From a virus: a stretch of DNA of 25,043 nucleotides. The notes beneath the pieces are model-generated. The model had not been told where the DNA came from, did not search any database, and saw nothing but the letters and a program-made list of their open reading frames with translations. Both the position numbers and the translations under genes were made by a program. How positions within the stretch are numbered: position 1 is the first letter of the stretch; each line of letters opens with the position of its first letter. Below are positions 2,540 through 25,043 of this stretch, one piece after another. Where the stretch lies: the IMG/VR virus record IMGVR_UViG_3300032285_002481, positions 1 to 25,043 of that record, one strand, 5' to 3'.

Positions 2540-2748
2540 TTAGGGAATAACCTCCATGCTTTAACCCAAGTGCGATGCATTTCATCTTCCTTTACAATCT
2601 CTTCAGCCAACTCTTTTGAATGTGTCGTACAGACAACACACTTGAAATCTGATTGATCTTGAGCAATCGACCAATATTCTAGGACAACGTACTCAACTGC
2701 CCATTCGAGACCCTCTGGTGGTTTTTTGTAATAAACCAGACGACCCAT
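2536..2748 (-). CDS. Small protein of unknown function (70 aa), start inside the primase stop
   Basis: I do not recognise this protein. Its sequence (MGRLVYYKKPPEGLEWAVEYVVLEYWSIAQ, then a CVVC pair and an acidic helix) looks like a small soluble mixed alpha/beta fold. I chose the ATG at 2748, which shares its A with the primase stop (TAATG) and has GGAG 9 bases upstream. An in-frame ATG at 2763 would add five residues but sits inside the primase gene with that GGAG downstream of it, so it is unlikely. The 3' end overlaps the next gene by ATGA. Translation is probably coupled from primase onward. Confidence 0.7.
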   Translation of the reverse strand: MGRLVYYKKPPEGLEWAVEYVVLEYWSIAQDQSDFKCVVCTTHSKELAEEIVKEDEMHRTWVKAWRLFPK

Positions 2749-3773
2749 TACGCTTTGCTCCACATATTCAATGCCAGCTTGGCTCGCAGGTCATTATACG
2801 TATGAGTGTCAATAATGTATCGAACAAAATCAGTACTGAGACCTGCCAAGATCATGTCATTCACATCCTTATGCTCAAGGTTAGTTGGCCAGATACAAAC
2901 ATTATACCCGTTAATGATAGCCTTGTCAAGCTTTTTCTTTGTCTCGATTGATCTTGGTTCGTTATCGTATACAACTACCAGATTCTTCTTAGGAAGATCT
3001 TTCACTGTTGAAACAAGATCGCCACCAGCAGTAGCAATACTGTTCGGCACAAACATAGAGTCAATCGGACCCTCGAACACGTATGTTTTCTTATTGAAAT
3101 CAACTGAGTCTAGACCATACACCTTGGGTGTTGTTTCATCGTTGACAATAGTTATATAGCGTGTCTTACTTTTACTATCAAGAGCTCGACCCTGAAACGC
3201 ATGCATGTTCTTTTCTGTATCAAAGAACGGAATCAGTAGCCTAGGCTCATCATAGAGCAAAGAAATGTCATCAAACTTACCTGGAATGATCTCGTTCGCC
3301 CAAGTAAAGAACTTGGGGCAAAAGAAAATCTTTGCATGATATGGATTGGGGATTTGGCGATTTGATACAAAAACTTTACAGGGATGATCAGCACTCAGCT
3401 GACTTACCTTCTTCAAACCCTTTAGAGGACCAGACTGTAAGAATACAGGCTTTTTCATCTTCTCGACGAAGTCTTCGAGTTCTTTCTGCTGAGGAGACTT
3501 CTCATCCTTCAGCTTCTCAAGGCTAAACTCAGAATACAGCTGAAAGTCTAGGTTCTTTAGAAAGTTATTGAAATTGTAAGTGATATCGCAATTGTGGCAA
3601 TGAAACATTGTGTTACCTTTCTTGGTATACACATAGCCACGAGCTCTTTTCTTGTCTGACTCTGAGTCGCCACAGAATGGGCAAGAAAAGCAGTAGAGCG
3701 TTGATGATTTGCGCTTATAGTTTCGAAGTCGATTCGATACTAAACCGATGTACTTTGTTTCTAACCAGTGCAT
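2748..3773 (-). CDS. 61: DNA primase, T4 gp61-like
   Basis: The primase synthesises RNA primers for lagging-strand synthesis and works with the gp41 helicase, also present here (18338-19747). An N-terminal zinc-binding domain is visible, with C31-x2-C34 (CPFC) and C59-x2-C62 (CHNC). A TOPRIM domain follows: the Glu motif in YVFEGPIDSM and the Asp motif in VVVYDNEPRS. Length is 341 residues, against 342 in T4 as I recall it. The ATG at 3773 is preceded by GGGAA, and an early-type promoter lies 33 bases upstream. It is the first gene of the operon that continues into two small genes, thyX and nrdA. In T4, primase is not next to nrdA, so this grouping differs from the type phage. Confidence 0.95.
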   Translation of the reverse strand: MHWLETKYIGLVSNRLRNYKRKSSTLYCFSCPFCGDSESDKKRARGYVYTKKGNTMFHCHNCDITYNFNNFLKNLDFQLYSEFSLEKLKDEKSPQQKELEDFVEKMKKPVFLQSGPLKGLKKVSQLSADHPCKVFVSNRQIPNPYHAKIFFCPKFFTWANEIIPGKFDDISLLYDEPRLLIPFFDTEKNMHAFQGRALDSKSKTRYITIVNDETTPKVYGLDSVDFNKKTYVFEGPIDSMFVPNSIATAGGDLVSTVKDLPKKNLVVVYDNEPRSIETKKKLDKAIINGYNVCIWPTNLEHKDVNDMILAGLSTDFVRYIIDTHTYNDLRAKLALNMWSKA

Positions 3774-9757: not shown

Positions 9758-9765
9758 TATTTATA
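9758..9765 (-). promoter_or_regulatory. T4-type late promoter (TATAAATA)
   Basis: A perfect minus-strand TATAAATAG lies in the 47-base gap before the 319-residue structural gene, 28 bases from its ATG. This is the -10 element recognised in T4 by the gp55 late sigma factor. No -35 element is expected. Confidence 0.85.
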
Positions 9766-9776
9766 AGGTTTTGATA

Positions 9777-12700
9777 TTAGAAGTGTTTGCTCATAGCCGA
9801 TCTCATGGAGTCACGATTTGCATGTAGTTTGTTGGCGAAATCATCTTTCTCCTGAGTTGTTTTCATAGAGTTATGAGTCATCACCATGTGTCTGGCTAGA
9901 TGTCTACCGACCTTGGTCTTAGATCCATCTTTGTGCTCGTAATGAGGCTCTCTACCTTCAATAGAGTGAGCGATCTTCTCAAGCTGCTGCATTGGATGCT
10001 TGTGAGTATCATCAACTTCAGCTTCCTGACCTGCTGGTAGAGGATTCTTTCTTGGACGACCGCGACCTTCTTCAATCTCAACTTCTTCCTTGTGAAGTTT
10101 GATCTGTGACTTTGGAAGTGTTACAGAATTGGATCTATTGTTGTAGTCGACAGTATATTTCTTTTCGGACTTTTTGTGAAGACCATGGTCTATTTCGCCT
10201 ACGTTACCAATAACTCCGTGATAATCCTTGCCCGGAGCATGCACCTTTACTCTAGAGCCTATCTTGATAGCCTCCTGGAGATCAACTTCTTCCTTACGAA
10301 GCTTCTTCTCATCAGAGATTGTATAATCAGCTGTTGAGTTTTTTGTATTGAAACCGCTCTGGTCCTGATTAGCTCCGCGAGTTGGAGCTGAAGTAGCAGT
10401 TGTAGGCGCAGATGATTTCTTTACGGCTTCATCGATTTCCGTTTGAAAAGAACTTGCAATATCCGCAATACGAGCTAGCTCTTCTTCAGAGAACTCAACT
10501 TCTTCTTTAGCAAGACGGTCGGCTGCTTTAACAATACCCATTTGACGATTTTGCATTTTATTTAATATTTTATCTCTAGCGTCTGGGTGCGTTTTTGTGA
10601 TTTGACCAAGATGTTCTAAATCTCTAGGAGAACCAGAACTTGTCGCAGCTTTCTTGACATACGAAGCAAGAGTTGACCTCTTCAGCTCATCAAGTTGGTC
10701 AACTTCTTCGCCCATTTCTTTCTTGGACATACCAGCAGCTTTGACTTTTACATCCTTAGAGCCGATAGACTTCTTTAGAGCCAGGTCCATACCTGCTTTG
10801 CGCTGCCCACCCTTTGTTGGGTCCATTCTTTCAGATTTAGCTGAATGCATGTAACGTTGAAGTGTGTCCTTCGAAACTTCTTCAATGCCTTCAACTTCTT
10901 CTTTAATACCATATGGGTGTTCTTTGAATATCTTTTCGGATTTAGCTGCTAATGATTTACCTGCGATAGTGCTACCATTTCTGCTCTGAATGAGTTTATC
11001 TTCAATAGAAGCAGAATGCTGCATATGTGCGTTGTATGCTTTTTTATCGCCAGCTTTACGAGCGTATTCAGCGGCAGATCTATGCTTGTCTTGAAGTTTA
11101 TAAGCGTCTTTTACAGACATTGTATTTTCAATAAGATCCTCAACTTCTTCTTCCTTAACCACACCGCGACCGACTAACACATCCTTGTGCGTGATCTTGT
11201 CCTTTGGTGAAGCTAGAGCAGCAAGCTTCTTTTCTTTTTCAGTTTTGGGTTCAGTTCCGGACTTTGTTTCTTCCTTTACTGCCTTCTTCTTGCCCTTTGC
11301 TGCGGCATCATCATCATTTTGCTTGTCGTCGGTTTCCGGATCAAGATCAACAGCAGTCTTACCGCCTGTCATCTTCTTTGGATCCTTTTCGTCTTCGTCT
11401 TTCTTCTCGACGATTTGACGAACTGCGTCGATAAGGCTCTTAGGAAGCCCAAAGTTTGGTAGTGACATGGTTGGTTTTTCCTCTACGATTTTTGTTTTGA
11501 TTTGACCGGTTTTACTCAAAGTGGATTTTTCTGATGTAGGTTTGGCGCCATCCATACGAGCAACGTTCTCGATCTTTTCGCGCTTCTCTGTATTGGTTTC
11601 TTCTCTCAATTTTACGCCGTGATAATCTTGATCATCGCCTACTCTAGATTGTATGTAAGGACCATTTGATTCCATATGTTTCTTTGCTTTTTGAACCAAG
11701 TCGGGATGTTTCTTTTTTAGTTCTCTATAATGATCTTGGTGCTCTTTTTTCCACTCGGATCCTGCATGAACGTCCTTTGGCATATACACTGGTGATGCTG
11801 GGGAAAACAAATGGTGAGCTTCTTTTGGATTGTGCTTTAATGCATGATTAAGTTTTGCAGTCATCCATTCTTTAGCTTTATTACCTTCCGGATATTTTGG
11901 TAAATCTTTTTGATCGGACTTTTTACCGAAACCAAATATTTCGTTGATGGTTTCTTCGCCCAGAGTGTCAACCTTTTTTCCATCAACGTACAGATTGTGT
12001 CTGATCTTTCTGTTCGGATTCAGTTTTGTGATAGTCTCGTGTTTCTTTCTGGCTTCTTCTTCCGAAGCGTGATAGCTCTTCGCATCGTGCATTCCGCTCT
12101 CGCTTCCGTCTTTCTTGAGAGAAACAAGCACAGCTGATTTTTTTGCGTCCGAAGCAGCAGATCTTTGTTTTCTAATATCGCTGGCAGCATTTTTCCAACC
12201 CTTGATTGCTTCTTCGAGCTTATGTTCAATCACTGCTCTGTGTTTTGGACGTTCGACCTTGATGCCTCTTTTAGCAAGTTCTTTTCTTGCTTTCAATTCG
12301 TTATCAATCTGATCAGCAAAACCTGGGTGACTGTATGTCAGCTTTTTATTATTCGGATTGGTAATACTGGCGTGAGCTCTTTGATGAATACCTCTGATGG
12401 TTTCGGTATCAACATTAGGTCCGATATTAGCTTCAACAACCGTATCTTCGTGTAAACCTTTGTATTCAATAGACTTCACACTATGAACACCGAAGTTTTT
12501 TGCAGCATAACGAGCGGCTTTATCTCTTGCTGTTCTTGTATCATGCGCCGGAACCGTCAACTTGATTTTAGTTCCCTTGGGCTTGGCGCCAATAGGTTCT
12601 ACAGTTTTATCATCAACCATTTTACCAAGTCTCGTATCATCCGCATGTAGATGAACGTGAAACACATGTTTGGATTCGGTCATAGTTTCTTCTTTCAGAG

Positions 12701-13262
12701 AATGTTGATGTTGTTGAACAAAATATTCTGCAGCATCTTTTGAATTGTTATGGTATCTGTTATGCCTATTAAATTGTAGACCGTTCGCATCGCTATGAAT
12801 AGCGTATTTTGTAATATCTTTTCTAGACGCAACGTAACGCTTACCGGGAATTTTAGTGTCTTTATAAGCACTGGAAGGTTCTAGCGTAGCTACTTTTTTG
12901 CCTTTATGATGGATATCGTAAGTCGGCTTACCATCCGGATGAGCGGTAGTTGATTTCTTGCCAGTCTTTACTAGTTTATAATCGGGATGTATTTCTTCCT
13001 GCAATTCTTCAGACATTTTCATCGTTTCATTTCGACGCTGTTTAGCTTCTCTATTACGTTTCTCAACTTCATCTTCGCGTTTCTCTGCACTGTCAGCAAC
13101 AGCTTTTTTAGATGCAAGTTCGTGCGATTGAGCTCTATGCGCTCCGATATTCAATCCGCTTTTATTACTAGAAGATGATGTGTGTCTAAAAACACTTCCA
13201 CCAGAGCCAACTGGTTTACCTTGGCTTACAATGCCTTCTAGGATAGACTTGATGTCTCTCAT
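9777..13262 (-). CDS. Modular basic/acidic head-associated protein, possible polyprotein (1161 aa)
   Basis: The protein is a chain of basic, often His/Lys-rich modules separated by acidic linkers: HSLKEETMTE (188-197), GLHEDTVVEA, KLEEAIKGW, TLGEETINEI, KLREETNTE, GIKEEVEGIEE, MGEEVDQLDE, LAKEEVEFSEEE, RKEEVDLQEA, HKEEVEIEEG (1057-1066). Two modules are related: IEEVSKDTLQRYMHSA (793-808) and LDELKRSTLASYVKKA (857-872), a motif I recall from internal or structural proteins of marine T4-like phages. Residues 998-1056 look like an SH3/KOW-type barrel (IGSRVKVHAPGKDYHGVIG). GRGRPRKN (1066-1073) is an AT-hook. Most linkers hold an (I/L)-x-E site, the T4 prohead-protease consensus, and the N-terminus MRDIKSILE|G has one too. 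It overlaps the Dps stop by ATGA. I infer packaging inside the head and possible processing; no enzymatic domain is visible. Confidence 0.85.
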   Translation of the reverse strand: MRDIKSILEGIVSQGKPVGSGGSVFRHTSSSSNKSGLNIGAHRAQSHELASKKAVADSAEKREDEVEKRNREAKQRRNETMKMSEELQEEIHPDYKLVKTGKKSTTAHPDGKPTYDIHHKGKKVATLEPSSAYKDTKIPGKRYVASRKDITKYAIHSDANGLQFNRHNRYHNNSKDAAEYFVQQHQHSLKEETMTESKHVFHVHLHADDTRLGKMVDDKTVEPIGAKPKGTKIKLTVPAHDTRTARDKAARYAAKNFGVHSVKSIEYKGLHEDTVVEANIGPNVDTETIRGIHQRAHASITNPNNKKLTYSHPGFADQIDNELKARKELAKRGIKVERPKHRAVIEHKLEEAIKGWKNAASDIRKQRSAASDAKKSAVLVSLKKDGSESGMHDAKSYHASEEEARKKHETITKLNPNRKIRHNLYVDGKKVDTLGEETINEIFGFGKKSDQKDLPKYPEGNKAKEWMTAKLNHALKHNPKEAHHLFSPASPVYMPKDVHAGSEWKKEHQDHYRELKKKHPDLVQKAKKHMESNGPYIQSRVGDDQDYHGVKLREETNTEKREKIENVARMDGAKPTSEKSTLSKTGQIKTKIVEEKPTMSLPNFGLPKSLIDAVRQIVEKKDEDEKDPKKMTGGKTAVDLDPETDDKQNDDDAAAKGKKKAVKEETKSGTEPKTEKEKKLAALASPKDKITHKDVLVGRGVVKEEEVEDLIENTMSVKDAYKLQDKHRSAAEYARKAGDKKAYNAHMQHSASIEDKLIQSRNGSTIAGKSLAAKSEKIFKEHPYGIKEEVEGIEEVSKDTLQRYMHSAKSERMDPTKGGQRKAGMDLALKKSIGSKDVKVKAAGMSKKEMGEEVDQLDELKRSTLASYVKKAATSSGSPRDLEHLGQITKTHPDARDKILNKMQNRQMGIVKAADRLAKEEVEFSEEELARIADIASSFQTEIDEAVKKSSAPTTATSAPTRGANQDQSGFNTKNSTADYTISDEKKLRKEEVDLQEAIKIGSRVKVHAPGKDYHGVIGNVGEIDHGLHKKSEKKYTVDYNNRSNSVTLPKSQIKLHKEEVEIEEGRGRPRKNPLPAGQEAEVDDTHKHPMQQLEKIAHSIEGREPHYEHKDGSKTKVGRHLARHMVMTHNSMKTTQEKDDFANKLHANRDSMRSAMSKHF

Positions 13263-13693
13263 TTACCTGTAGCTTTCAGCATCCAGCCATGTTTTGAATG
13301 AATGTCAATACGGTCCTGCATGAAGTTAGAAAGACCTGGTTTATTTTCTTTTTCAGCCAGAACGTATGCCTTTGTCAATTCCGCGATAACCTTCTGATTA
13401 TCTGATTCCAACTCAGAGAACATTGCTCTTGCATTTGGAATATTGATTTGATCATCAACAACCGAAAGCTGGGAAAAACGACCGAGGCTACCAGGAGCGT
13501 AAGCATCAAGTGCTCTAATGTGTTCAGCAATAGCATCTACAGCCTCCCAAACTTCGTTATACAGTCCATCAAGAAAGGAATGATACTGAGGAAAGTTAGG
13601 ACCCTCAATATTCCAATGAAAATTGTGAGCCTTCAGATAAAAAGCGAAAGAGGACGCTAGGACCACTTTCATTTGCTGAACAAGCTGATCCAT
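13259..13693 (-). CDS. dps: Dps/ferritin-like DNA-protection protein
   Basis: Dps proteins form dodecamers that oxidise and store iron and shield DNA. The 144 residues carry the complete Dps ferroxidase pattern: H26 (in HNFHWN), H38, D42, D53 and E57, with spacing equal to E. coli Dps H51, H63, D67, D78 and E82. The family's 'GPNFPQYHSFLDGLYNEVWEAVDAIAEHIRALD' core and the C-terminal helix (HSKHGWMLKATG) are present. The long Lys-rich N-terminal DNA-binding tail of E. coli Dps is missing (start MDQLVQQMK). DNA contact may therefore be weak or supplied by partners. The gene is locked between the membrane coiled-coil gene (TAATG overlap) and the modular 1161-residue gene (ATGA overlap), inside the late block, so it is made when heads are assembled. 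Confidence 0.93.
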   Translation of the reverse strand: MDQLVQQMKVVLASSFAFYLKAHNFHWNIEGPNFPQYHSFLDGLYNEVWEAVDAIAEHIRALDAYAPGSLGRFSQLSVVDDQINIPNARAMFSELESDNQKVIAELTKAYVLAEKENKPGLSNFMQDRIDIHSKHGWMLKATGK

Positions 13694-13989
13694 TACTTCT
13701 TTGCCTTTTTACCGATTATCTTGGTCTTCACAGATTCGATTTCAGCAACTACAGCTTCTTCGATTTTCTTTTCGACTTCAACAACCGCTTCTTCCGCTTT
13801 CTTTTCGACAGTATCAACAACTTCAGCCGCAGCAGCTGCAGCTTTTTCTTCGAAAGCTTGAAGATCTCTTTTTGCAAGATCCCAAACTGCACTATCTTTC
13901 GCGATAATAGCAGCTTCTTTCTTCAGAAACCATCTCTGTCCGAGCCAAACAATGATACCTACGACAACAACAATACCAAGATATTCCAT
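13693..13989 (-). CDS. Membrane-anchored Ala/Glu coiled-coil protein (98 aa)
   Basis: An N-terminal membrane helix (MEYLGIVVVVGIIVWLGQRWFLKKE) is followed by a charged helix rich in Ala, Glu, Val and Lys (EEKAAAAAAEVVDTVEKKAEEAVVEVEKKIEEAVV) and a Lys-rich end (GKKAKK). I chose the ATG at 13989 because GGAGG sits 5 bases before it, overlapping the upstream stop (GGAGGATAAAATG). An upstream in-frame GTG at 14013 has no such site and would put charged residues before the membrane helix. I do not recognise a family. The 11-residue 'AEE/VEKK' periodicity suggests a long single helix or a coiled coil. A membrane protein here is unexpected among capsid-type genes; an inner-membrane assembly or lysis role is possible. 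Confidence 0.75.
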   Translation of the reverse strand: MEYLGIVVVVGIIVWLGQRWFLKKEAAIIAKDSAVWDLAKRDLQAFEEKAAAAAAEVVDTVEKKAEEAVVEVEKKIEEAVVAEIESVKTKIIGKKAKK

Positions 13990-13990
13990 T

Positions 13991-14407
13991 TTATCCTCCA
14001 TTTCCGCCACCACCTGAGCTTCCGCTCTTTCCGGGTGGATGTTTTTCTATTTTACCAGATGCCATTCTAATCGCCACCATTGGCGTAGAAACTTCTTTAC
14101 GTTTACCAGTTGTTCCAGCTGGAACGCTTAGTTCGTTTAGTCTGAATACATGCGTCACATATGATCTGTTCTTACTAGCTCTACTCTTTTGTTCGCGATC
14201 GCGACTACCAGACTGCGAAGCCAGTTTGAAATGACCTTTCTTAACCAAGTTGTGAGCTGCTTCCAACTCTCTGTTTTTTCTTGGGTTGTGACTTATTTCA
14301 TGAGTCACTGATACCATTTTTTGCGGATGACCGTGAGCTCTATCAAACAAATCTTTTTCTGTCTTATTTAACGCGGCTTCTTTTATGTAGTTTTTGTATG
14401 ATTTCAT
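13991..14407 (-). CDS. Basic late protein with a T4 capsid-targeting-like N-terminus (138 aa)
   Basis: The N-terminus MKSYKNYIKEA matches the T4 internal-protein capsid-targeting sequence MKTYQEFIAEA at 6 of 11 positions, and the others are largely conservative. It places the (I/L)-x-E cleavage site at IKE|A. The rest (HGHPQKMVSVTHEISHNPRKNRELEAAHNLVKKGHFKLA) is strongly basic with many His, resembling T4 internal proteins in character though not in sequence. The C-terminus is a Gly/Ser-rich tail (PPGKSGSSGGGGNGG). It sits in the late block, starting 1 base after the DUF6321-like gene's stop. I infer a head-internal, possibly injected protein; its biochemical activity is unknown. Confidence 0.75.
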   Translation of the reverse strand: MKSYKNYIKEAALNKTEKDLFDRAHGHPQKMVSVTHEISHNPRKNRELEAAHNLVKKGHFKLASQSGSRDREQKSRASKNRSYVTHVFRLNELSVPAGTTGKRKEVSTPMVAIRMASGKIEKHPPGKSGSSGGGGNGG

Positions 14408-14408
14408 A

Positions 14409-15164
14409 CTAACAATTCCACTTTCTCAATGCTTTATTGATGCGGGAATCTGGATCGTGCGCAGTTTTGGCGCTAGTCAATCTCTTTTTCATACCACCCA
14501 TGCGAGCACAAAATGATTTACGACGGCTGTGCGCTTTAGTGCCCTTCTTGAGTTTAGAAGGTTTGGTAGTTACTGGCGCTTGAAGATGGCTTCCGGTAGT
14601 TCTGTTGTAATGATCTCTACCTTTCTGACTCAAACCGCCATTCGGGTTTTGATATTCGTTTTCGTCGATGTCTTTTTTCTTACCGCAAGTGCAGACACCA
14701 CCACACTCATAAAGAACTTCCTCGATAACTTTCTTTACGATTCTTTTTGATGACTGACCTGGAGTGTCTTTCTTATAAGTGTCAACCAATTCTTTAGACC
14801 CTTCAAATCTAGAAGATGGCTTCATTTTATTTTTTGAATGAACCTCAGCATCTTCTTTCATATCTTTTGGTTTCTTGCCAGCCTTTTTCATAGAGATAGC
14901 GATTGCCGCTTGCTGCGCTGGAGAAACTGCTTCTGGAACGCAATCAGGAACCATTCTGTTTCCCTTCTTCTTCATACCAACTTTCTTGTATCCGTCCCAG
15001 CATGCCTCGTCGACGCTATCTTCTTTCATTGCAGCCATATTGTCAACAAGATTTGGATATGGGCGACCAGCTGCTCGCGCGCGTGCTTTCGCGCTCTTGA
15101 CTTGAGAGCTTGACATACTTTTCCCTTTAGACGGGACTTCGTGATTCCAAGGTTTGTCTGACAT
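14409..15164 (-). CDS. Lys/Cys-rich late protein with DUF6321-like C-terminus (251 aa)
   Basis: The C-terminal ~85 residues (NPNGGLSQKGRDHYNRTTGSHLQAPV...KKGTKAHSRRKSFCARMGGM...ALRKWNC) match a phage domain I recall as DUF6321, with the invariant 'RRKSFCARM' and terminal 'LRKWNC'. The middle has a 'CWDGYKKVGMKKKGNRMVPDCVPE' module common in marine T4-like phages and a Cys cluster YECGGVCTCGKKKD that could bind metal. The N-terminal part (SSSQVKSAKARARAAGRPYPN) is basic and DNA-binding-like. (I/L)-x-E sites occur at IEE|V and IDE|N. A perfect late promoter (15185-15192) and GGAG 6 bases before ATG precede it. It opens the sub-operon running through the Dps and modular genes. A head-internal or DNA-associated role is inferred; function is unknown. 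Confidence 0.8.
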   Translation of the reverse strand: MSDKPWNHEVPSKGKSMSSSQVKSAKARARAAGRPYPNLVDNMAAMKEDSVDEACWDGYKKVGMKKKGNRMVPDCVPEAVSPAQQAAIAISMKKAGKKPKDMKEDAEVHSKNKMKPSSRFEGSKELVDTYKKDTPGQSSKRIVKKVIEEVLYECGGVCTCGKKKDIDENEYQNPNGGLSQKGRDHYNRTTGSHLQAPVTTKPSKLKKGTKAHSRRKSFCARMGGMKKRLTSAKTAHDPDSRINKALRKWNC

Positions 15165-15184
15165 TGATGGCTCCAGTTTTGATG

Positions 15185-15192
15185 TATTTATA
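15185..15192 (-). promoter_or_regulatory. T4-type late promoter (TATAAATA)
   Basis: A perfect minus-strand TATAAATAC lies in the 55-base gap before the DUF6321-like gene, about 20 bases from its ATG. It would start the transcript carrying the head-associated cassette down to 9777. Confidence 0.85.
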
Positions 15193-15219
15193 AAAAACGA
15201 TTGGCTATAGTTTTGCGCT

Positions 15220-17202
15220 CTAACGAGATTTCAATCTCTGAAACACTCTGCTCAACAAATCGTTGATCTCTTCGGTTACATTGGTTTTTTGTTTGACAGC
15301 TTTCGGTTTTCTAACTGGTTTCTTCATAGCTTTCATACGCTGTCTGCGCTCGACCTCGGCGCGAGCTTTGACGCCGATTGGGTCATTACGTTTAGCGTAT
15401 TTACCAAGTGATATACCGGAAGTCTCAGGACCAATCTGAATGTCCATACCTTTACGAACATCATTGAACATCTCGCGCGCATGCTCGGGATGGACATGAG
15501 GAGGAATACCTTTCTTGAACTCACCGAATCTGTTTGTTATAGCGTGGGCGCGCATTTTTGAGGCTGACATACCTGTAACACCCTCAGCATCTGGATCGCG
15601 TTCGCCAGCCGAAACAACGTCAATTTTTTTGAAATTGAACTCTCCGTTCGGACCGTTATATCTATCTAACAGCTTCTTATATTCATCGACACGGTCAGAA
15701 CCAGCGACCATGGTCGCATGAGTCACACCTTGTTTATGAAGCTTTTTCAGCTGTTCGATGAACGTGGGAGCATCGTCATCTGCCGCAGTGATGTTAGCTC
15801 CTGGAAAAAATCTCTTGGCGTGTTTCAGTTTCTGCTCCGGAGTCAGAGGATTCTTCTCTGGATCCTGTGAGCTAGAGATAACGATAGAATGACCTGCTTT
15901 CTTAGCAGCTGCTAGTTCCCTGACTTTATCAACTAGAGCTCCGTGACCGACGGTCGGAGGATTCATTCTACCAAAGGCGAACACATGTTCCTTATCGCCT
16001 TCTTCTGTCGGAGTGGCGTCCGGTTCGCCTTTACCTCTGTTGTTAGCGAAATTGAGTCTGCTGAACTCGGCTCTATCAACCAGCTTCGTAGGTTTACCGT
16101 CTCTAATTGAAACAAACCCTTCAGGCTTGACCTGTTTACCGCCGACGGTATTTTCAAACTCTGTAGGGTTGCCTAGAGCTTTTACCAGAATGTCTTTCGC
16201 GGCTTGTAAATGATGATGAAGATCGAAAGCTGACTTGTATTTTTCTTCGTTTGTTTTCAGGTCGTCTATGAGTTCGTTGTATGCGCCAGCTTTCTTTTCT
16301 TTGGCTGCTTCTGTCTTCAGTTTCTCTGTTTCTTTGTTTCGTTTGTCTTCAAGAAACTTCATGTAATCTTTTACGTTAGGTGTAGTTCCGTCTCTAACGG
16401 TTTGATTGATGTATGGTTTGATGAATGTATCGTGTTTGCTTAGAGATTCTAGAACGTCAGTACCTGTATTTCTGTATGCTTCATCAGCAGCTTCTCTATG
16501 TTTAGCGTATTCAGCTTGCATAGCTTTGGTGTATTTTGACTTGCTTGTATCGTTGACTTCTGGATTGACTAGGTTTACGTCTGGGTCTTGTTTGAACTTT
16601 GAATGATCAACATCGAATCCTGCCTTCATATCGGCAAGATTCTTTCCTTTGTATTTCGTATGAACAACAAATCCTATCTGAGAAGCTGCTATCTTTCTAC
16701 CTTGCGCACTGTCTTTATCGGCTGAATATGTAATCGTATTAGGAGCAAACTTGTACTTACCACCCTCGTCTTCAATGTCTGGTTTGTCGTAAAGGAAGTC
16801 GCCTTGATACACACCACCTTCTTTTGGCATAATCTTTTGAAGATGCGCAAGAGCCACTTTCAACTTAGCAACAAGACCAGGAGCGTGACCGTGGTTCTGC
16901 TCGATGTCTTTATCGGTGTAGTTGATTTTTGGATTTTTGTTGAATGCTGACTTCGAGGCTACAAAAAACTTACCATTCTCTGGGTTGATACCGAACACAA
17001 TTGAAGGCGAACCATCGTACTTGGTTGTAATCTTCGACTTAGACTTACCACCTGTAAGAAGGCTGTGAAGATCATCTAGGTTGTCGGCAGCATGCGCAAC
17101 ACCAGCATCGCCTCCATGAATGATATGATCCTCGGCATGTTCTAGATGCTTGAGCTTATCGACATCGAGGGATTCGATCAAAAACGTAGAGAATGTTATC
17201 AT
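15220..17202 (-). CDS. Fusion of a KxDG ligase-like domain and an HxGH-type nucleotidylyltransferase domain (DUF6267-like, 660 aa)
   Basis: The N-terminal domain has the hallmarks of covalent nucleotidyltransferases (ATP/NAD ligases, capping enzymes): K61-Y-D63-G64 (motif I nucleophile), GVYQGDF (130-136, motif III region), E361-GFV (motif IV) and K373-LV (motif V). I recall phage proteins of this type as DUF6267. The C-terminal domain (about 405-585) is a nucleotidylyltransferase of the NMNAT/cytidylyltransferase superfamily: FAFGRMNPPTVGH (408-420), VAGSDRVDEY (499-508) and GMSASKMR (544-551, ISSTxxR-like). In the first motif the first His is replaced by Thr417, as in other phage members. 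The N-terminus MITFSTFLIE|S resembles the T4 capsid-targeting peptide with an LIE cleavage site. The ATG lies 2 bases after the upstream stop. Domain assignments are firm; substrates (NAD, RNA or a sugar nucleotide) are unknown. Confidence 0.85.
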   Translation of the reverse strand: MITFSTFLIESLDVDKLKHLEHAEDHIIHGGDAGVAHAADNLDDLHSLLTGGKSKSKITTKYDGSPSIVFGINPENGKFFVASKSAFNKNPKINYTDKDIEQNHGHAPGLVAKLKVALAHLQKIMPKEGGVYQGDFLYDKPDIEDEGGKYKFAPNTITYSADKDSAQGRKIAASQIGFVVHTKYKGKNLADMKAGFDVDHSKFKQDPDVNLVNPEVNDTSKSKYTKAMQAEYAKHREAADEAYRNTGTDVLESLSKHDTFIKPYINQTVRDGTTPNVKDYMKFLEDKRNKETEKLKTEAAKEKKAGAYNELIDDLKTNEEKYKSAFDLHHHLQAAKDILVKALGNPTEFENTVGGKQVKPEGFVSIRDGKPTKLVDRAEFSRLNFANNRGKGEPDATPTEEGDKEHVFAFGRMNPPTVGHGALVDKVRELAAAKKAGHSIVISSSQDPEKNPLTPEQKLKHAKRFFPGANITAADDDAPTFIEQLKKLHKQGVTHATMVAGSDRVDEYKKLLDRYNGPNGEFNFKKIDVVSAGERDPDAEGVTGMSASKMRAHAITNRFGEFKKGIPPHVHPEHAREMFNDVRKGMDIQIGPETSGISLGKYAKRNDPIGVKARAEVERRQRMKAMKKPVRKPKAVKQKTNVTEEINDLLSRVFQRLKSR

Positions 17203-17204
17203 TT

Positions 17205-17936
17205 TTATACCTTTACGATCAACCCACCAGAGGGAACTTTGTCCGTAACGACTATTCTTCCGGCTGAATCTCCTTTTGATGGTGATTTTCCGTAAATTTT
17301 AGGCGTTCCTTTATTGTCCTTAGCAGTCGGATCGAATCTTTGATCTTCTCTTCTCGCTCTAAGGCGGAAAAACAACTTATGTGTTTTAGCGTAATCATTA
17401 CTTTCGTGAAACTCGCCGTTCAACAATTGCAATTTATTATTTTTTTCGTCGTAATTTGAAGATACGTCCATAGCTCCGATATACATATAATCTATTGGAC
17501 CGCCCATGAGTTTGTTTCCGACGACAATTTTGGTTTTTGATTGACTGGCTATTTCGCCGAATACGTCGGGAACTTTGTCTCCCGGTTTTAATTTTTTAAT
17601 ATTCGTCAGAGCGTTGAACGCTTCTTTTAAAAATTTTTCAGTTAAACCTGGAACAGCCAATTCAAGACCTTTAAGACCGCCGCCAGCAAGAGAAGGCGCT
17701 GAAGGACCTTTACAAGAAAGATTAATCTGTTTTTTATCGTAAGTCATCAAAATAACGTCGGTGTAAGGTTCTGAACCTCCAGCTTGTCTTCCTGAAAATT
17801 TTTCAGCGTCTACAACGCCCTCTATTATAATTTTCCCGGCGATCACTGTAACTGGATTATTTTTGTTCTTTTTTACTGCATCTTTGATAGCTTTTATCAA
17901 ACCAGTTTCTTGTCTTTCTGCAGACTCTCCAGCCAT
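17205..17936 (-). CDS. Late protein of unknown function with a faint PD-(D/E)xK-like pattern (243 aa)
   Basis: I do not recognise a named family. Residues (numbered from the start chosen here) about 10-80 read GLIKAIKDAVKKNKNNPVTVIAG...QAGGSEPYTDVILMTYDKKQINLSCKG. A helix, then D-x(n)-(S/E)-x-K between two strands, is the outline of restriction-endonuclease-like cores; this is suggestive only. The middle (GLKGLELAVPGLTEKFLKEAFNALTNIKKL) is helical and the C-terminus is basic. I chose ATG 17936, preceded by GGCGAG, because the late promoter 17972-17979 would start RNA only a few bases before or within the ATG at 17969, and the longer frame begins with an implausible TTG at 17984. It is the first gene of the late block and ends 2 bases before the ligase-like fusion gene, so the two are co-expressed. 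The gene looks more A/T-rich than its neighbours. Confidence 0.7.
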   Translation of the reverse strand: MAGESAERQETGLIKAIKDAVKKNKNNPVTVIAGKIIIEGVVDAEKFSGRQAGGSEPYTDVILMTYDKKQINLSCKGPSAPSLAGGGLKGLELAVPGLTEKFLKEAFNALTNIKKLKPGDKVPDVFGEIASQSKTKIVVGNKLMGGPIDYMYIGAMDVSSNYDEKNNKLQLLNGEFHESNDYAKTHKLFFRLRARREDQRFDPTAKDNKGTPKIYGKSPSKGDSAGRIVVTDKVPSGGLIVKV

Positions 17937-17971
17937 TATTGTCTCGCCTTTTCGTTGATGGTCTTTCATCT

Positions 17972-17979
17972 TATTTATA
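17972..17979 (-). promoter_or_regulatory. T4-type late promoter (TATAAATA)
   Basis: A perfect minus-strand TATAAATAA lies just downstream of the terminator at 17983-18020. It marks the switch from the early replication block to the late block and fixes the start of the 243-residue gene at 17936. Confidence 0.85.
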
Positions 17980-17982
17980 AAC

Positions 17983-18020
17983 AAAAAAAGGGTTGGACCT
18001 TCCGATCCAACCCCTCTTTT
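17983..18020. terminator. Symmetric intrinsic terminator between early and late blocks
   Basis: An 8-bp stem GGGTTGGA (17990-17997) pairs with TCCAACCC (18006-18013) around an 8-base loop. It is flanked by seven A's on one side and a T-rich run on the other, so it can act in both directions. On the minus strand it ends the helicase transcript just before the first late promoter. Confidence 0.9.
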
Positions 18021-18128: not shown

Positions 18129-18341
18129 TTAGTCCAAATACGCGACTTTTTTTTTCGGCTCAGAAAAATATTTTTCAAGCATGAATGCTGGAGTCCAACC
18201 ATCAAATCCATACCCACGATTGAAATTGGTCTTAGCAACCTGAGCGTCTTGAGCCGTCTTATATGTCCCAATCACTTGTTCGGTTCGAGTTTCTAGTAGA
18301 TCCCAAGCCTCACCGCTCTTCATAATCTTGTAATTCATCAT
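18129..18341 (-). CDS. Small protein of unknown function (70 aa) after helicase
   Basis: The 70 residues read MMNYKIMKSGEAWDLLETRTEQVIGTYKTAQDAQVAKTNFNRGYGFDGWTPAFMLEKYF and end in a basic tail. The pattern (short strands, 'AWDLLE...V.GTYKTAQDA..AK..FNRGYGFDGWTP.FML') looks like a compact alpha/beta phage protein seen beside replication genes, but I cannot name it. The ATG overlaps the helicase stop by 4 bases (ATGA), implying co-translation. It is the last coding unit before the ncRNA/terminator region. Confidence 0.75.
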   Translation of the reverse strand: MMNYKIMKSGEAWDLLETRTEQVIGTYKTAQDAQVAKTNFNRGYGFDGWTPAFMLEKYFSEPKKKVAYLD

Positions 18342-19747
18342 GCAAATCCTTCAAAATCTTTCTTACCAAACTTAGATTTCTTTTTATAGAAATCGCTATC
18401 TCGTTCGCCGAAGTCAGTTTTGTCCATCACGGGACGATCATCAACCAACCCTTCCTGAGCATCCTGTTCAACGTCGAACAATTTCATCTTAGACCGATCG
18501 ATACCAACAACAAACCTACGATACGATGCAGGATCGTTGTATCGGTTCTTCAGCTGCTTGACCATAATCTGACCGAGACCTTCTAGCTCCTCGGACGTAA
18601 TAAGAGCAAACATGAAGTCAGCTGTCGCTGGCAGACCAAACGACTCAGAAGTATCTTCAAGACCCACGTCGCTGTTACCGAAACCAGAACGAGTGGTCTG
18701 GGTTGCAGAAACGATCGGAACATTGAACTCAACTGCCAAGCCACGAAGCTCCTCAGCAATCGCCTTCACATACATGTAGGAGTTGACGTTGTTGCCGTAC
18801 TTCATCCTAGAAGAAGCGCAGATGTTCAGATAGTCAACGTAGATTATCTCTGGGCTGAAGTTCTTTTTCAGCTTCAACTCATTGATCAGGTGACGGAAGT
18901 TAGCCGAACCAGCCGAAGCTGTAGGATACTCCTTGATGATCAGCTTACCAGTCGTCTTGTTCTTTACGCGTTCAAGCTTCCGGTCATAGGTTTCCTTGTT
19001 CATCTCACAGAGCTCATCCATGCTAACATTCATGAGATTGGCATCAATACGCTCGGCGATGCGTTCCTCAGCCATTTCCATAGTGATATACAGAACGTTC
19101 TTACCGTCAAGCAGATTGCCAGCCGCGCAGTGACACATGAACAAAGACTTACCCACACCCGTGCCCGCGAGCGCGATGTTCAGTGTCTTGTTTGGCAATC
19201 CACCCTTAGTGATACGGTTGAAGTAGTCTAGGTTGAACGGAACCCTAGATTCCTTGCGGTGATAAAACTCATAGCGAGAGTCAGCATCATCAAGGAAGTT
19301 GTGACCGATGTTTGTATCAAAACTGATTCCCAAAGCATCAGAAAGGATCTGGGGGATGCTACCCTTGTCCTTCTTCTGATCCTTGTTATCTAGAATCTGA
19401 ATGGATTGCATGATCGCGTTATAGACTGAACGCTCCTGAACGAACTTCTCGGTCTTATCAACAATCCACTCAAGCTCGGTCTTAGGGTCGTAGTCTAGGC
19501 TCTCAATGTTACCGGCGATGGTCTTGACCTGATCGTCGTTGATCCCGTTCATACTAACGAGATCGATAGCGAGAGCTTCCTTAGTCGGGAAGCGATTATA
19601 CTTCAGTACATAACCTTCAATGAGCTCGAAAAGAACCTTATCATCACGGTCTTGAAAATGCTCCTTCTTTAGGAATGGGATAACCTTTCTACCATAGTCC
19701 TCACGAAAGACTAGGTTACCGAATATGACTTGTTCAAAGCTGCTCAA
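18338..19747 (-). CDS. 41: Replicative DNA helicase, T4 gp41-like
   Basis: This is the DnaB-family hexameric helicase that unwinds the fork and recruits primase. Length is 469 residues. Walker A is GTGVGKS (195-201), with Walker B-type IIYVDYLNI and the sensor region VPIVSATQTTRSG. The N-terminal domain (FEQVIFGNLVFREDYGRKVIPFLKKEHF) aligns with the start of T4 gp41. The start codon appears to be TTG at 19747, sharing bases with the upstream stop (TTGA) and preceded by AGAAGGGA. The homology begins within a few residues of it and no better ATG exists. It follows uvsX and a 72-residue gene in one transcript. Confidence 0.95.
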   Translation of the reverse strand: MSSFEQVIFGNLVFREDYGRKVIPFLKKEHFQDRDDKVLFELIEGYVLKYNRFPTKEALAIDLVSMNGINDDQVKTIAGNIESLDYDPKTELEWIVDKTEKFVQERSVYNAIMQSIQILDNKDQKKDKGSIPQILSDALGISFDTNIGHNFLDDADSRYEFYHRKESRVPFNLDYFNRITKGGLPNKTLNIALAGTGVGKSLFMCHCAAGNLLDGKNVLYITMEMAEERIAERIDANLMNVSMDELCEMNKETYDRKLERVKNKTTGKLIIKEYPTASAGSANFRHLINELKLKKNFSPEIIYVDYLNICASSRMKYGNNVNSYMYVKAIAEELRGLAVEFNVPIVSATQTTRSGFGNSDVGLEDTSESFGLPATADFMFALITSEELEGLGQIMVKQLKNRYNDPASYRRFVVGIDRSKMKLFDVEQDAQEGLVDDRPVMDKTDFGERDSDFYKKKSKFGKKDFEGFA

Positions 19748-19962
19748 TCGTTATTCCCTTCTAGTTTTAGAATACCCAACACGTAATTCTCGGACATATC
19801 CTCTGCGTATCGCAGAGTATGATCAACCACTTCTCTGGTTCCCATCAGAACGTCATTCTCATAGAACTCCACGAGAAAACCGTTGTCATTTCTGTAAATC
19901 GTCGAGTGTCGCACGTCTCCAGTCTCGCTCGAAATCGTGGTTTTGATACATTCATTCGTCAT
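19744..19962 (-). CDS. Small conserved phage protein between uvsX and helicase (72 aa)
   Basis: The sequence MTNECIKTTISSETGDVRHSTIYRNDNGFLVEFYENDVLMGTREVVDHTLRYAEDMSENYVLGILKLE shows a beta-rich first half and a helix with 'RYAEDMSENYVLGI'. I recall similar 'YAED.AENW.LGI' proteins next to uvsX in other T4-like phages, always unnamed. It overlaps the uvsX stop by 11 bases and the helicase start by 4, so all three are co-translated. Constant placement between recombinase and helicase hints at a replication-accessory role. Confidence 0.8.
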   Translation of the reverse strand: MTNECIKTTISSETGDVRHSTIYRNDNGFLVEFYENDVLMGTREVVDHTLRYAEDMSENYVLGILKLEGNND

Positions 19963-20989
19963 CGCGAATCATCTCTCCTTGCCCAAGCGAATACTTTTCC
20001 TTGATCCATTCTGCGAACCTAGTCTCTTCAAGGATTGCCTTCCAGAAATCGCTGTTATCAACGATGTCAGCAGCACGATAGTTCTTACCCATGATCTCAC
20101 CAGTTTCCTGATCAACACGAGCGTACCAGCCTTGCTTTGGCTTGATGATGAACTGACCCTCTAGAGCCAGGTCAAGCATACCAGACCACCTATTGATACC
20201 TGAATCGAAACTCACAGTGATAGGAATCTTAGACTTTTCCTTGAGATAGCGAGACTTTTCAATGTTGATAACAAAGTGATAGCCGAGAAGCTCCTTGTCA
20301 TCCTTGTCCTGCTGACGACCAATGATCCAGATGTTATCAGCCGAATAGTAGATACCGGTACCACCGCTGACGACTGCCTTAGAATACATCTCCTGTGTCA
20401 TATAGACGTGATTGACCACGACCATAGGAATGTCCTTGAGAGTCAGGTGAGGAGTGACCATACGAAACAACGACTTCAGCTGCCTAGCACGAGTCATGTC
20501 AGCAGCAGAGCTCTGCTTCATCGCATCCTCAACTTCCTTCTTAGAAGCCAGGTTACCGACCGAATCAATGACAATCATGACTTTATCGTTACGCTTGATC
20601 TCACCCAACTGATGCATAACGTCAAACTTGAGCTGCTCGATGTCGGTGATTGGCGTATGAACCACAGATTCCAGCGGCACGCCGAATGAGGTAAAGTAAG
20701 ATTCTGGTGTTCCGAACTCTGAGTCGTAGAACAAGATGATACCATCAGGATTCGCCTTCAAAAACGCAGAAGCCAGTAGCAAGCTGAATGCGGTCTTGAA
20801 GTGTTTCGACGGCGCAGCAAGAACCGTGAGCCCAGGAGTCAATCCGCCGTCAATCCTACCGGAAAGAGCGACGTTGATCATAGGAACTCGAGTAGGGATC
20901 ATATCCTTCTTGCCGAAAATCTTTGAATCGGTCAAAGTTGCAGTAAAATCAATGGTGCTGTTTTTGATCAAACGATCTCGTAGTGACAT
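19952..20989 (-). CDS. uvsX: RecA-like recombinase UvsX
   Basis: UvsX forms filaments on single-stranded DNA and drives strand exchange and recombination-dependent replication. The Walker A has the UvsX-type variant APSKHFKT (59-66), lacking the usual GK glycine, as in T4 (GPSKSFKS). Walker B is MIVIDSVGNL. The loop region with GGTGIYYSADNIWIIGRQQ and the acidic C-terminus (GEMIRDDE) are also family-like. Length is 345 residues, below T4's 391 as I recall it. AAGGAG precedes the ATG by 6 bases, with a strong sigma70 promoter upstream, so it starts an early transcript: uvsX, 72-aa gene, helicase, 70-aa gene. Confidence 0.96.
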   Translation of the reverse strand: MSLRDRLIKNSTIDFTATLTDSKIFGKKDMIPTRVPMINVALSGRIDGGLTPGLTVLAAPSKHFKTAFSLLLASAFLKANPDGIILFYDSEFGTPESYFTSFGVPLESVVHTPITDIEQLKFDVMHQLGEIKRNDKVMIVIDSVGNLASKKEVEDAMKQSSAADMTRARQLKSLFRMVTPHLTLKDIPMVVVNHVYMTQEMYSKAVVSGGTGIYYSADNIWIIGRQQDKDDKELLGYHFVINIEKSRYLKEKSKIPITVSFDSGINRWSGMLDLALEGQFIIKPKQGWYARVDQETGEIMGKNYRAADIVDNSDFWKAILEETRFAEWIKEKYSLGQGEMIRDDE

Positions 20990-24685: not shown

Positions 24686-25043
24686 TTACTCCGAAAGGAA
24701 TTGCTTCTTTGTCTCTGCGGCTGAATCAACAGCATCAACGATATCGATCTTCTTTGGCTTCTTTGATTCAGGAATCACATGCTCCAGCCAAACTTTGAGC
24801 ATACCATTGACGAGATTAGCGTTGTTGATCTCAATGTTATCTGCCAGAGTGAACTGGCGAGTAAATCCGCGATCAGCAATACCCTTGTGGAGATATGAAG
24901 TCGCGTAATCTCCGTTGGGGTCGCCAGAAATCTTACCCTTGATAAGAAGCTTGTTGTTTTCAAGAGTCAGCTCGATATCCTGCTTGGCGAAACCAGCAAC
25001 AGCCATTTCGATGACGTACTTGTTTTCGTCAGTCTTCTTCAGG
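24686..25043 (-). CDS. Small heat-shock protein, Hsp20/IbpA family, 5' end outside window
   Basis: The open frame continues to the right edge (LKKTDENKYVIEMAVAGFAKQDIELTLENNKLLIKG), giving about 119 visible residues. This is the alpha-crystallin domain of IbpA-type chaperones. The A-G-F motif, the beta-strands ending in FTRQFTLADNIEI and the 'NANLVNGMLKVWLEHVIPE' strand with conserved G-x-L are all seen. The C-terminus has the I-x-I-type anchor in KPKKIDIVD. The N-terminal arm lies beyond the window. Such chaperones hold unfolding proteins; sHSPs are reported in cyanophages and other T4-like phages, where they may assist virion protein folding. Confidence 0.95.
   Translation of the reverse strand, partial: LKKTDENKYVIEMAVAGFAKQDIELTLENNKLLIKGKISGDPNGDYATSYLHKGIADRGFTRQFTLADNIEINNANLVNGMLKVWLEHVIPESKKPKKIDIVDAVDSAAETKKQFLSE

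Follow-up and report, generated by a model that had tools for sequence, protein, structure and literature searches.

In phage T4, genetics has defined a ten-residue capsid-targeting sequence, in which residues 4 and 7 serve targeting and residues 8 and 10 serve processing (PMC9026906). We describe here N-terminal peptides resembling it in a stretch of 25,043 nucleotides with 24 genes (the window), which corresponds to positions 1-25,043 of the IMG/VR record IMGVR_UViG_3300032285_002481 and comes from a T4-like myovirus, a lake phage. From sequence comparisons, it is well supported that two of its proteins, of 660 and 138 amino acids (aa), carry a tag of the T4 type. The best explanation, which we hold with good confidence, is that these two proteins undergo T4-type capsid targeting, cleavage in the prohead, retention in the head and delivery, and that a third protein, of 1161 aa, probably follows by means of a variant tag. 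The tag is of a known kind, from T-even phages; its cargo and the interchangeable strings of modules described below appear to be new.

The T4 internal proteins IPI, IPII and IPIII are comparable in their ten-residue N-terminal propeptide, with aromatic residues at positions 4 and 7, Ile or Leu at position 8 and Glu at position 10, followed by Ala (in ipII and ipIII), as well as in their diverse cargo and, judging here from promoter matches, in late genes. They are however small and inhibit GmrSD restriction, whereas the cargo here includes a 660-aa predicted ligase-NMNAT fusion, encoded in a cassette that lies between the genes for helicase and primase. T4 Alt, a packaged and injected ADP-ribosyltransferase, is likewise an NAD-linked enzyme in the head, processed by gp21, but it belongs to another enzyme class, its reaction being the transfer of ADP-ribose and not synthesis or ligation. 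The virion NMNAT-like proteins of S-SCSM1, S-SZBM1 and S-CREM2 have a homologous C-terminal domain and a tagged N-terminus; they are encoded by separate genes, and the published reports, in their available parts, give no packaging signal and allow for contamination. The ejection proteins of phiKZ and SPN3US are head proteins cut after Glu, at multiple sites, by a gp21-related protease; by description, phage group, propeptides and cargo differ from ours. Finally, phage polyvalent proteins (Aravind group) are multi-module and thought to be head-packaged and injected, but they join large enzyme domains, whereas here the modules are small, have prohead-protease-like sites between them and can take the place of single genes with a tag, or be replaced by them. 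Our literature search yielded no report of a capsid-targeting tag in this phage group, 'capsid targeting' and 'cyanophage' occurring together only in a T4 review.

An earlier note on this DNA had claimed that three proteins start with T4-like targeting peptides. The three N-termini lie where it placed them, all on the minus strand (14407, 17202 and 13262), and MKSYKNYIKEA of the 138-aa protein is indeed identical to T4 ipII (MKTYQEFIAEA, taken from the T4 record) at 6 of 11 residues. The likeness holds for the 660-aa and 138-aa proteins, which fit T4 positions 4, 7, 8 and 10, and is weaker for the 1161-aa protein: its MRDIKSILE/G (a slash marks a predicted or possible cut) has no aromatic residue and has its Glu at position 9, so that it fails the strict motif and only a generic IxE/G site is left. 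As to the mature N-termini predicted in the note, S11 and G10 stand, and A12 is to be corrected to A11, since a cut after E10 gives A11.

The strict motif, [FY]xx[FYW][ILMVF]xE near the start Met, was taken from T4 genetics; ipII and ipIII match it, and ipI, with its longer propeptide, does not. It had replaced a looser pattern, in which any IxE close to the N-terminus counted and which was too common to discriminate (p 0.08). The strict motif is found in 2/24 window genes, against a mean of 0.0175 for shuffled N-termini, at least two matches being reached in 0/2000 shuffles. Among 139 related IMG/VR loci (relatives are designated by L-numbers), the tag follows the start Met in 46/756 distinct genes and an internal Met in 2/3241 (p 1e-31). 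When Glu is replaced in the motif, matches drop to 0 with D, 1 with K and 0 with Q. Glu is residue 10 in 43 of the 46 tagged genes and is directly followed by Ala in 23 of them, where 3.4 would be expected. The tag recurs on otherwise unrelated proteins, namely HAD-like hydrolases, DUF6321, DUF6267, cytidylyltransferase, SAM lyase (S-CREM2), kinase and families of unassigned function, and tagged genes can be consecutive, in runs (L171, L173, L174). It is present on 100 of the 110 cytidylyltransferase genes examined, and replication genes are untagged (helicase 0/58, UvsX 0/8, polymerase 0/6).

The alignment of homologues that the note had called for reveals N-terminal conservation in the 660-aa family, whose absence would have refuted the note's reading: all of 11 sequences share F4, L8, E10 and S11 and have F or Y as residue 7, and residues 2, 3, 5, 6 and 9 vary freely. 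Residues 1-17 are disordered in an AlphaFold2 (AF2) model. The two-domain enzyme that the note had seen in the cassette is this same protein, which combines a DUF6267 domain with an NMNAT/cytidylyltransferase-like domain. In DUF6267, K61, D63, G64, E361, G362 and K373, corresponding to KxDG and downstream ligase motifs, are invariant in 26 sequences. The AF2 model built from these 26 sequences (pLDDT 87) replaced a poor one from 11 sequences (pLDDT 62). All of the 50 VIA structure matches listed for it are RNA/DNA ligases, TbREL1 and T4 Rnl2 among them; the best is a Naegleria RNA ligase (Z 8.9, rmsd 4.0 over 188 residues). Foldseek gave an E of only 0.015 for the DUF6267 model, and a profile sequence search (A1) in PDB gave chance-level matches only. 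As judged from the model, DUF6267 is an RNA/DNA-ligase-type nucleotidyltransferase fold; our literature search found no paper mentioning this family. The C-terminal domain matches the PHROG cytidyltransferase family (9.8e-64), its Pfam CTP_transf_like score of 18.9 bits being under the cut-off of 21; by eye, it shows the (H/T)xGH and SxSxxR motifs of NMNAT and other HIGH nucleotidyltransferases. DUF6267 and cytidylyltransferase are two genes in L147 and L020-L022, and each gene is then tagged; in L020-L022, the first of them uses a GTG start and was missed by the first-ATG gene call. In a fused DUF6267-NMNAT protein (L126:98-2227), LLE/A is found at the domain junction, near the start of the stand-alone tagged NMNAT of L147. 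A tagged protein of 86 aa in L142 (2337-2597), MLSFKDFFKE/ETISGDVRGLGYVTGDP, has its counterpart in the C-terminal extension of longer homologues of the 660-aa protein, where it stands behind (I/V)KE.

Published virion proteomes of relatives allow the tag to be compared with packaging. Leaving aside the structural and lysis groups, S-CREM2 virions contain four enzymes (PMC10665884 Table 3), and the motif is found on 4/4 of them: SAM hydrolase (MKDFDSFLEE), kinase (MKRFDAFLTE), cytidylyltransferase (MKNFSSFLTE) and a Cas9-annotated protein (RFASFMAE/A). In this phage, an association of the motif with virion proteins of the non-structural kind is seen by Fisher test both when it is sought near the start (p 7e-4) and when it is sought within 30 residues (p 3e-4). 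The Cas9/Csn1-annotated protein (L033:7704-10313) has no Pfam match, and its tag-like RFASFMAE lies at residues 18-25, not at the very start. Of two adjacent S-SZBM1 products, the tagged cytidylyltransferase gp140 was detected in virions, and the untagged DUF6267 protein gp141 does not appear in the list (PMC9146016 Table 1). The NMNAT of S-SCSM1 (MKSFLQFLKE/A), encoded in a syntenic cassette, bears a virion-protein annotation. In all, three cultured T4-like cyanophages (S-CREM2, S-SZBM1 and S-SCSM1) have had tagged homologues of the enzyme detected in their purified virions. The NMNAT of S-CBWM1 is without tag; this phage was left out of the count because it is described as a non-T4 phage.

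Judging from their sequences, the 1161-aa, 251-aa and 138-aa proteins appear to be built of modules. Among the homologues of the 138-aa protein, the tag varies from MKSYKNYIKE/A to MLSFKQYLNE/A with the body still ~94% identical. A close relative (L005) has no module 1, so that the tag is joined directly to module 2 (MKSYKDYIKE/LSVPAG), where the window has LNE/LSVPAG; module 2 likewise follows a tag in L148/L149 (KFKEYIKE/LSVPQG) and an internal linker in L126 (INE/LSVPLG). The 251-aa protein has internal sites at VDE/ACW (ending at 15006) and LYE/CGG (ending at 14706). Its CGG module, there behind LYE, is found behind a tag in L011 (MTVSFRQYIAE/CGG), and its DUF6321 domain is stand-alone and tagged in L013 and L152.

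In the 1161-aa protein, near-identical phages differ by whole modules. The boundaries of these indels fall at EE[VTI] linkers in 27/32 cases (background 9.6%), and the (K/R)EEVE linkers are followed by [ILVM]xE in 32/38 (vs 12.8% at random positions). The AIKGWK module is stand-alone in Xanthomonas phage X1 (MTFEEFLGE/AIKGWK), L170 (MKTFKELTE/AIKGWK), L173 (TFKDYLEE/AIKGWK) and also L171 and L174, and the AVKKSS module has stand-alone tagged relatives in L015 (MKNFRNWLEE/AKKKS), L016, L139, L011 and L017. A permissive test of module boundaries was swamped by low-complexity linkers and was redone with filters: 19/49 internal homologues of mature N-termini then have [ILVMF]xE at the exact position (background 2.0%), with a p-value that is optimistic and not conservative because the linkers are Glu-rich. 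As for the start of the protein, homologues have MKNFKSIFE/G (L149), IRDLMQE/S (L011), RDLWIAE/A (L015), VIAE/A (L126) and SVLE/A (L147), and those of L128, L138, L140 and L148 have no (I/L/V)xE-type N-terminal site. That MRDIKSILE/G is a weak variant of the tag is only plausible, because of these homologues without any such site.

By alignment, modules found behind an internal (I/L/V)xE here are thus found elsewhere as single genes behind an N-terminal tag, at the same residue. This coincidence in the two contexts suggests that the prohead protease cuts the strings into separate cargoes, a good hypothesis and the simplest reading of both contexts. We lean, by a modest degree, towards the fuller proposal that, in these aquatic T4-like phages, a stop, a start and a targeting tag are interchangeable with a linker and a prohead-protease site. 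Small modules would then travel either singly, each from its own tagged gene, or in strings that share one tag, the protease freeing each of them with the same mature N-terminus before injection. The boundaries could alternatively result from recombination in Glu-rich linker DNA, not from protease cutting: around KEEVE-rich linkers [ILVMF]xE is frequent in any case (in the target proteins, 12.5% of random positions have one no more than 3 residues away, vs the 2% exact-position background). This we consider doubtful, if worth keeping in mind, as the boundary residue does not change where an N-terminal tag, and not a KEEVE linker, precedes the module (AIKGWK, LSVP and CGG modules).

Other roles can be envisaged for the tag itself. 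Instead of signalling packaging and cleavage, it might be a helix that docks the protein to some other partner in the phage or the host (membrane, scaffold or an encapsulation of the microcompartment type), as the AF2 model shows residues 5-11 as an amphipathic helix, short like many docking peptides. This is very improbable, given that a near-absolute Glu at residue 10 followed by Ala is a protease signature and not a helix signature, that the positions agree exactly with those of the T4 sequence and that tagged proteins are detected in virions. The tagged proteins might also enter the prohead only as core or scaffold filler, to be cut up and lost, and not be injected effectors. Most of the fragments into which T4 gp22, gp67 and gp68 are cleaved do leave the head (PMC9026906), and the 1161-aa string, with its many cut-like sites, looks like a substrate of this kind; nevertheless, the ligase motif residues of the ligase-NMNAT protein are invariant, mature virions of three phages still contain cytidylyltransferases, and the modules are accessory and variable, which makes filler an unlikely account.

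Several points weigh against packaging and delivery. The evidence on packaging comes from virions of relatives, and the authors of these proteomes allow that enzymes may be contaminants. The available parts of the relatives' proteome papers report no new cut N-termini. In S-CREM2, the untagged 'other' virion proteins are mostly probable tail parts, and the tag explains part of the list. In S-SCSM1 alone, the association between tag and virion is not significant (1/17, p 0.12), and the tagged gp30 (MKTFKQFMSES, 106 aa, L037:34215-34535 = MK867354 44215-44535), although in the structural block, was undetected by mass spectrometry. gp21 is not within this 25-kb fragment. Finally, tagged families had served as queries in collecting the loci; the signal survives removal of those families (start Met 21/716, internal Met 1/2868).

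The 'late' character claimed in the earlier note is supported by exact TATAAATA late-promoter matches on the coding strand at the heads of three operons (Table 1); as the cassette lies between replication genes, outside the structural block, this attribution rests on the promoter matches. gp21 and gp23 were sought without success in the ten closest contigs and found in larger relatives, which encode a gp21-family protease (Peptidase_S77). The N-terminal region of the major capsid protein of relatives and cyanophages contains QTLTE/TSS, LLTE/APT and FLAE/APT, and that of T4 gp23 FLTE/AEI.

On the whole, the observation of the earlier note is confirmed, in a stronger form than it had claimed, and its interpretation is supported. 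We infer the following course. The 660-aa and 138-aa proteins would be made late, and their first ten residues, through the aromatics at 4 and 7, would bind each of them into the prohead core. The prohead protease would cut after (I/L)xE, and the cut proteins would stay in the head with the DNA and be delivered at infection; the 1161-aa protein would probably enter via its variant tag. A reasonable guess at the likely purpose of the 660-aa cargo is that it would repair RNA and/or supply NAD, against host defence, at an early stage of infection.

The genes concerned belong to an accessory-gene cassette on the minus strand, between the gp41-like helicase and the gp61-like primase. Used as a DNA query against phage isolates, the cassette gave no match, and the 138-aa protein has none among them either. 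A Dps/ferritin-like protein (13259-13693, minus; PF00210, 2.3e-25; PHROG DNA binding protein), encoded directly before the 1161-aa gene, is without tag in 26/26 copies seen. The slot between the helicase and the 660-aa gene (17205-17984, minus), whose protein matches no Pfam family, has other occupants in many relatives (MAAQKGF..., MTQNTIL..., MTEFATS...), and the occupant is itself tagged in L147, L149 and Melnitz gp15. By eye, the genes at 1671-2321 and 24686-25006 (both minus) resemble a ThyX-type thymidylate synthase and a fragment of a small heat-shock protein, respectively.

Table 1. Positions of the features discussed, in window coordinates.
Feature	Position	Strand	Remarks
UvsX-like recombinase	19952-20989	minus	sequence and shared synteny
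gp41-like helicase	18338-19747	minus	sequence and shared synteny
T4-type late promoter match TATAAATA	17972..17979	minus	upstream of 254-aa and 660-aa genes
660-aa protein gene	15220-17202	minus	
Capsid-targeting tag MITFSTFLIE (660-aa)	17173..17202	minus	predicted cut before S11; fits T4 positions 4, 7, 8, 10
DUF6267 domain, residues 18-388	16039..17151	minus	KYDG motif; PF19782 E 1.9e-100
NMNAT/cytidylyltransferase-like domain, residues ~404-595	15418..15993	minus	motifs GRMNPPTVGH, MSASKMR (by eye)
T4-type late promoter match TATAAATA	15185..15192	minus	upstream of 251-aa, 138-aa, 102-aa, Dps-like and 1161-aa genes
251-aa protein, untagged	14409..15164	minus	C-terminal DUF6321; PF19846 E 5.5e-21
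138-aa protein gene	13991-14407	minus	
Capsid-targeting tag MKSYKNYIKE (138-aa)	14378..14407	minus	strict motif; predicted cut before A11
Module 1 of 138-aa protein, residues 11-92	14132..14377	minus	ends with LNE
Module 2 of 138-aa protein, residues 93-138, LSVPAGTTGKRK...	13994..14131	minus	after LNE/L
1161-aa protein gene	9777-13262	minus	apparent modular string with (K/R)EEVE linkers
Candidate variant tag MRDIKSILE (1161-aa)	13236..13262	minus	predicted cut before G10
Module AIKGWK..., residues 352-436	11955..12209	minus	after KLEE
Module AVKKSS..., residues 946-990	10293..10427	minus	after EIDE
TATAAATA match	9758..9765	minus	upstream of 319-aa gene
Primase (gp61-like)	2748-3773	minus	PHROG 3.8e-71

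For T4-like phages whose hosts are cyanobacteria, SAR11, methylotrophs and lake bacteria, the tag offers a simple sequence rule to predict host-delivered proteins. It is also a possible explanation for virion enzymes of doubtful presence in published proteomes, such as NMNAT, SAM hydrolase, kinase and the Cas9-annotated protein. The ligase-NMNAT cargo, together with the modular strings, would be a candidate for injected counter-defence.

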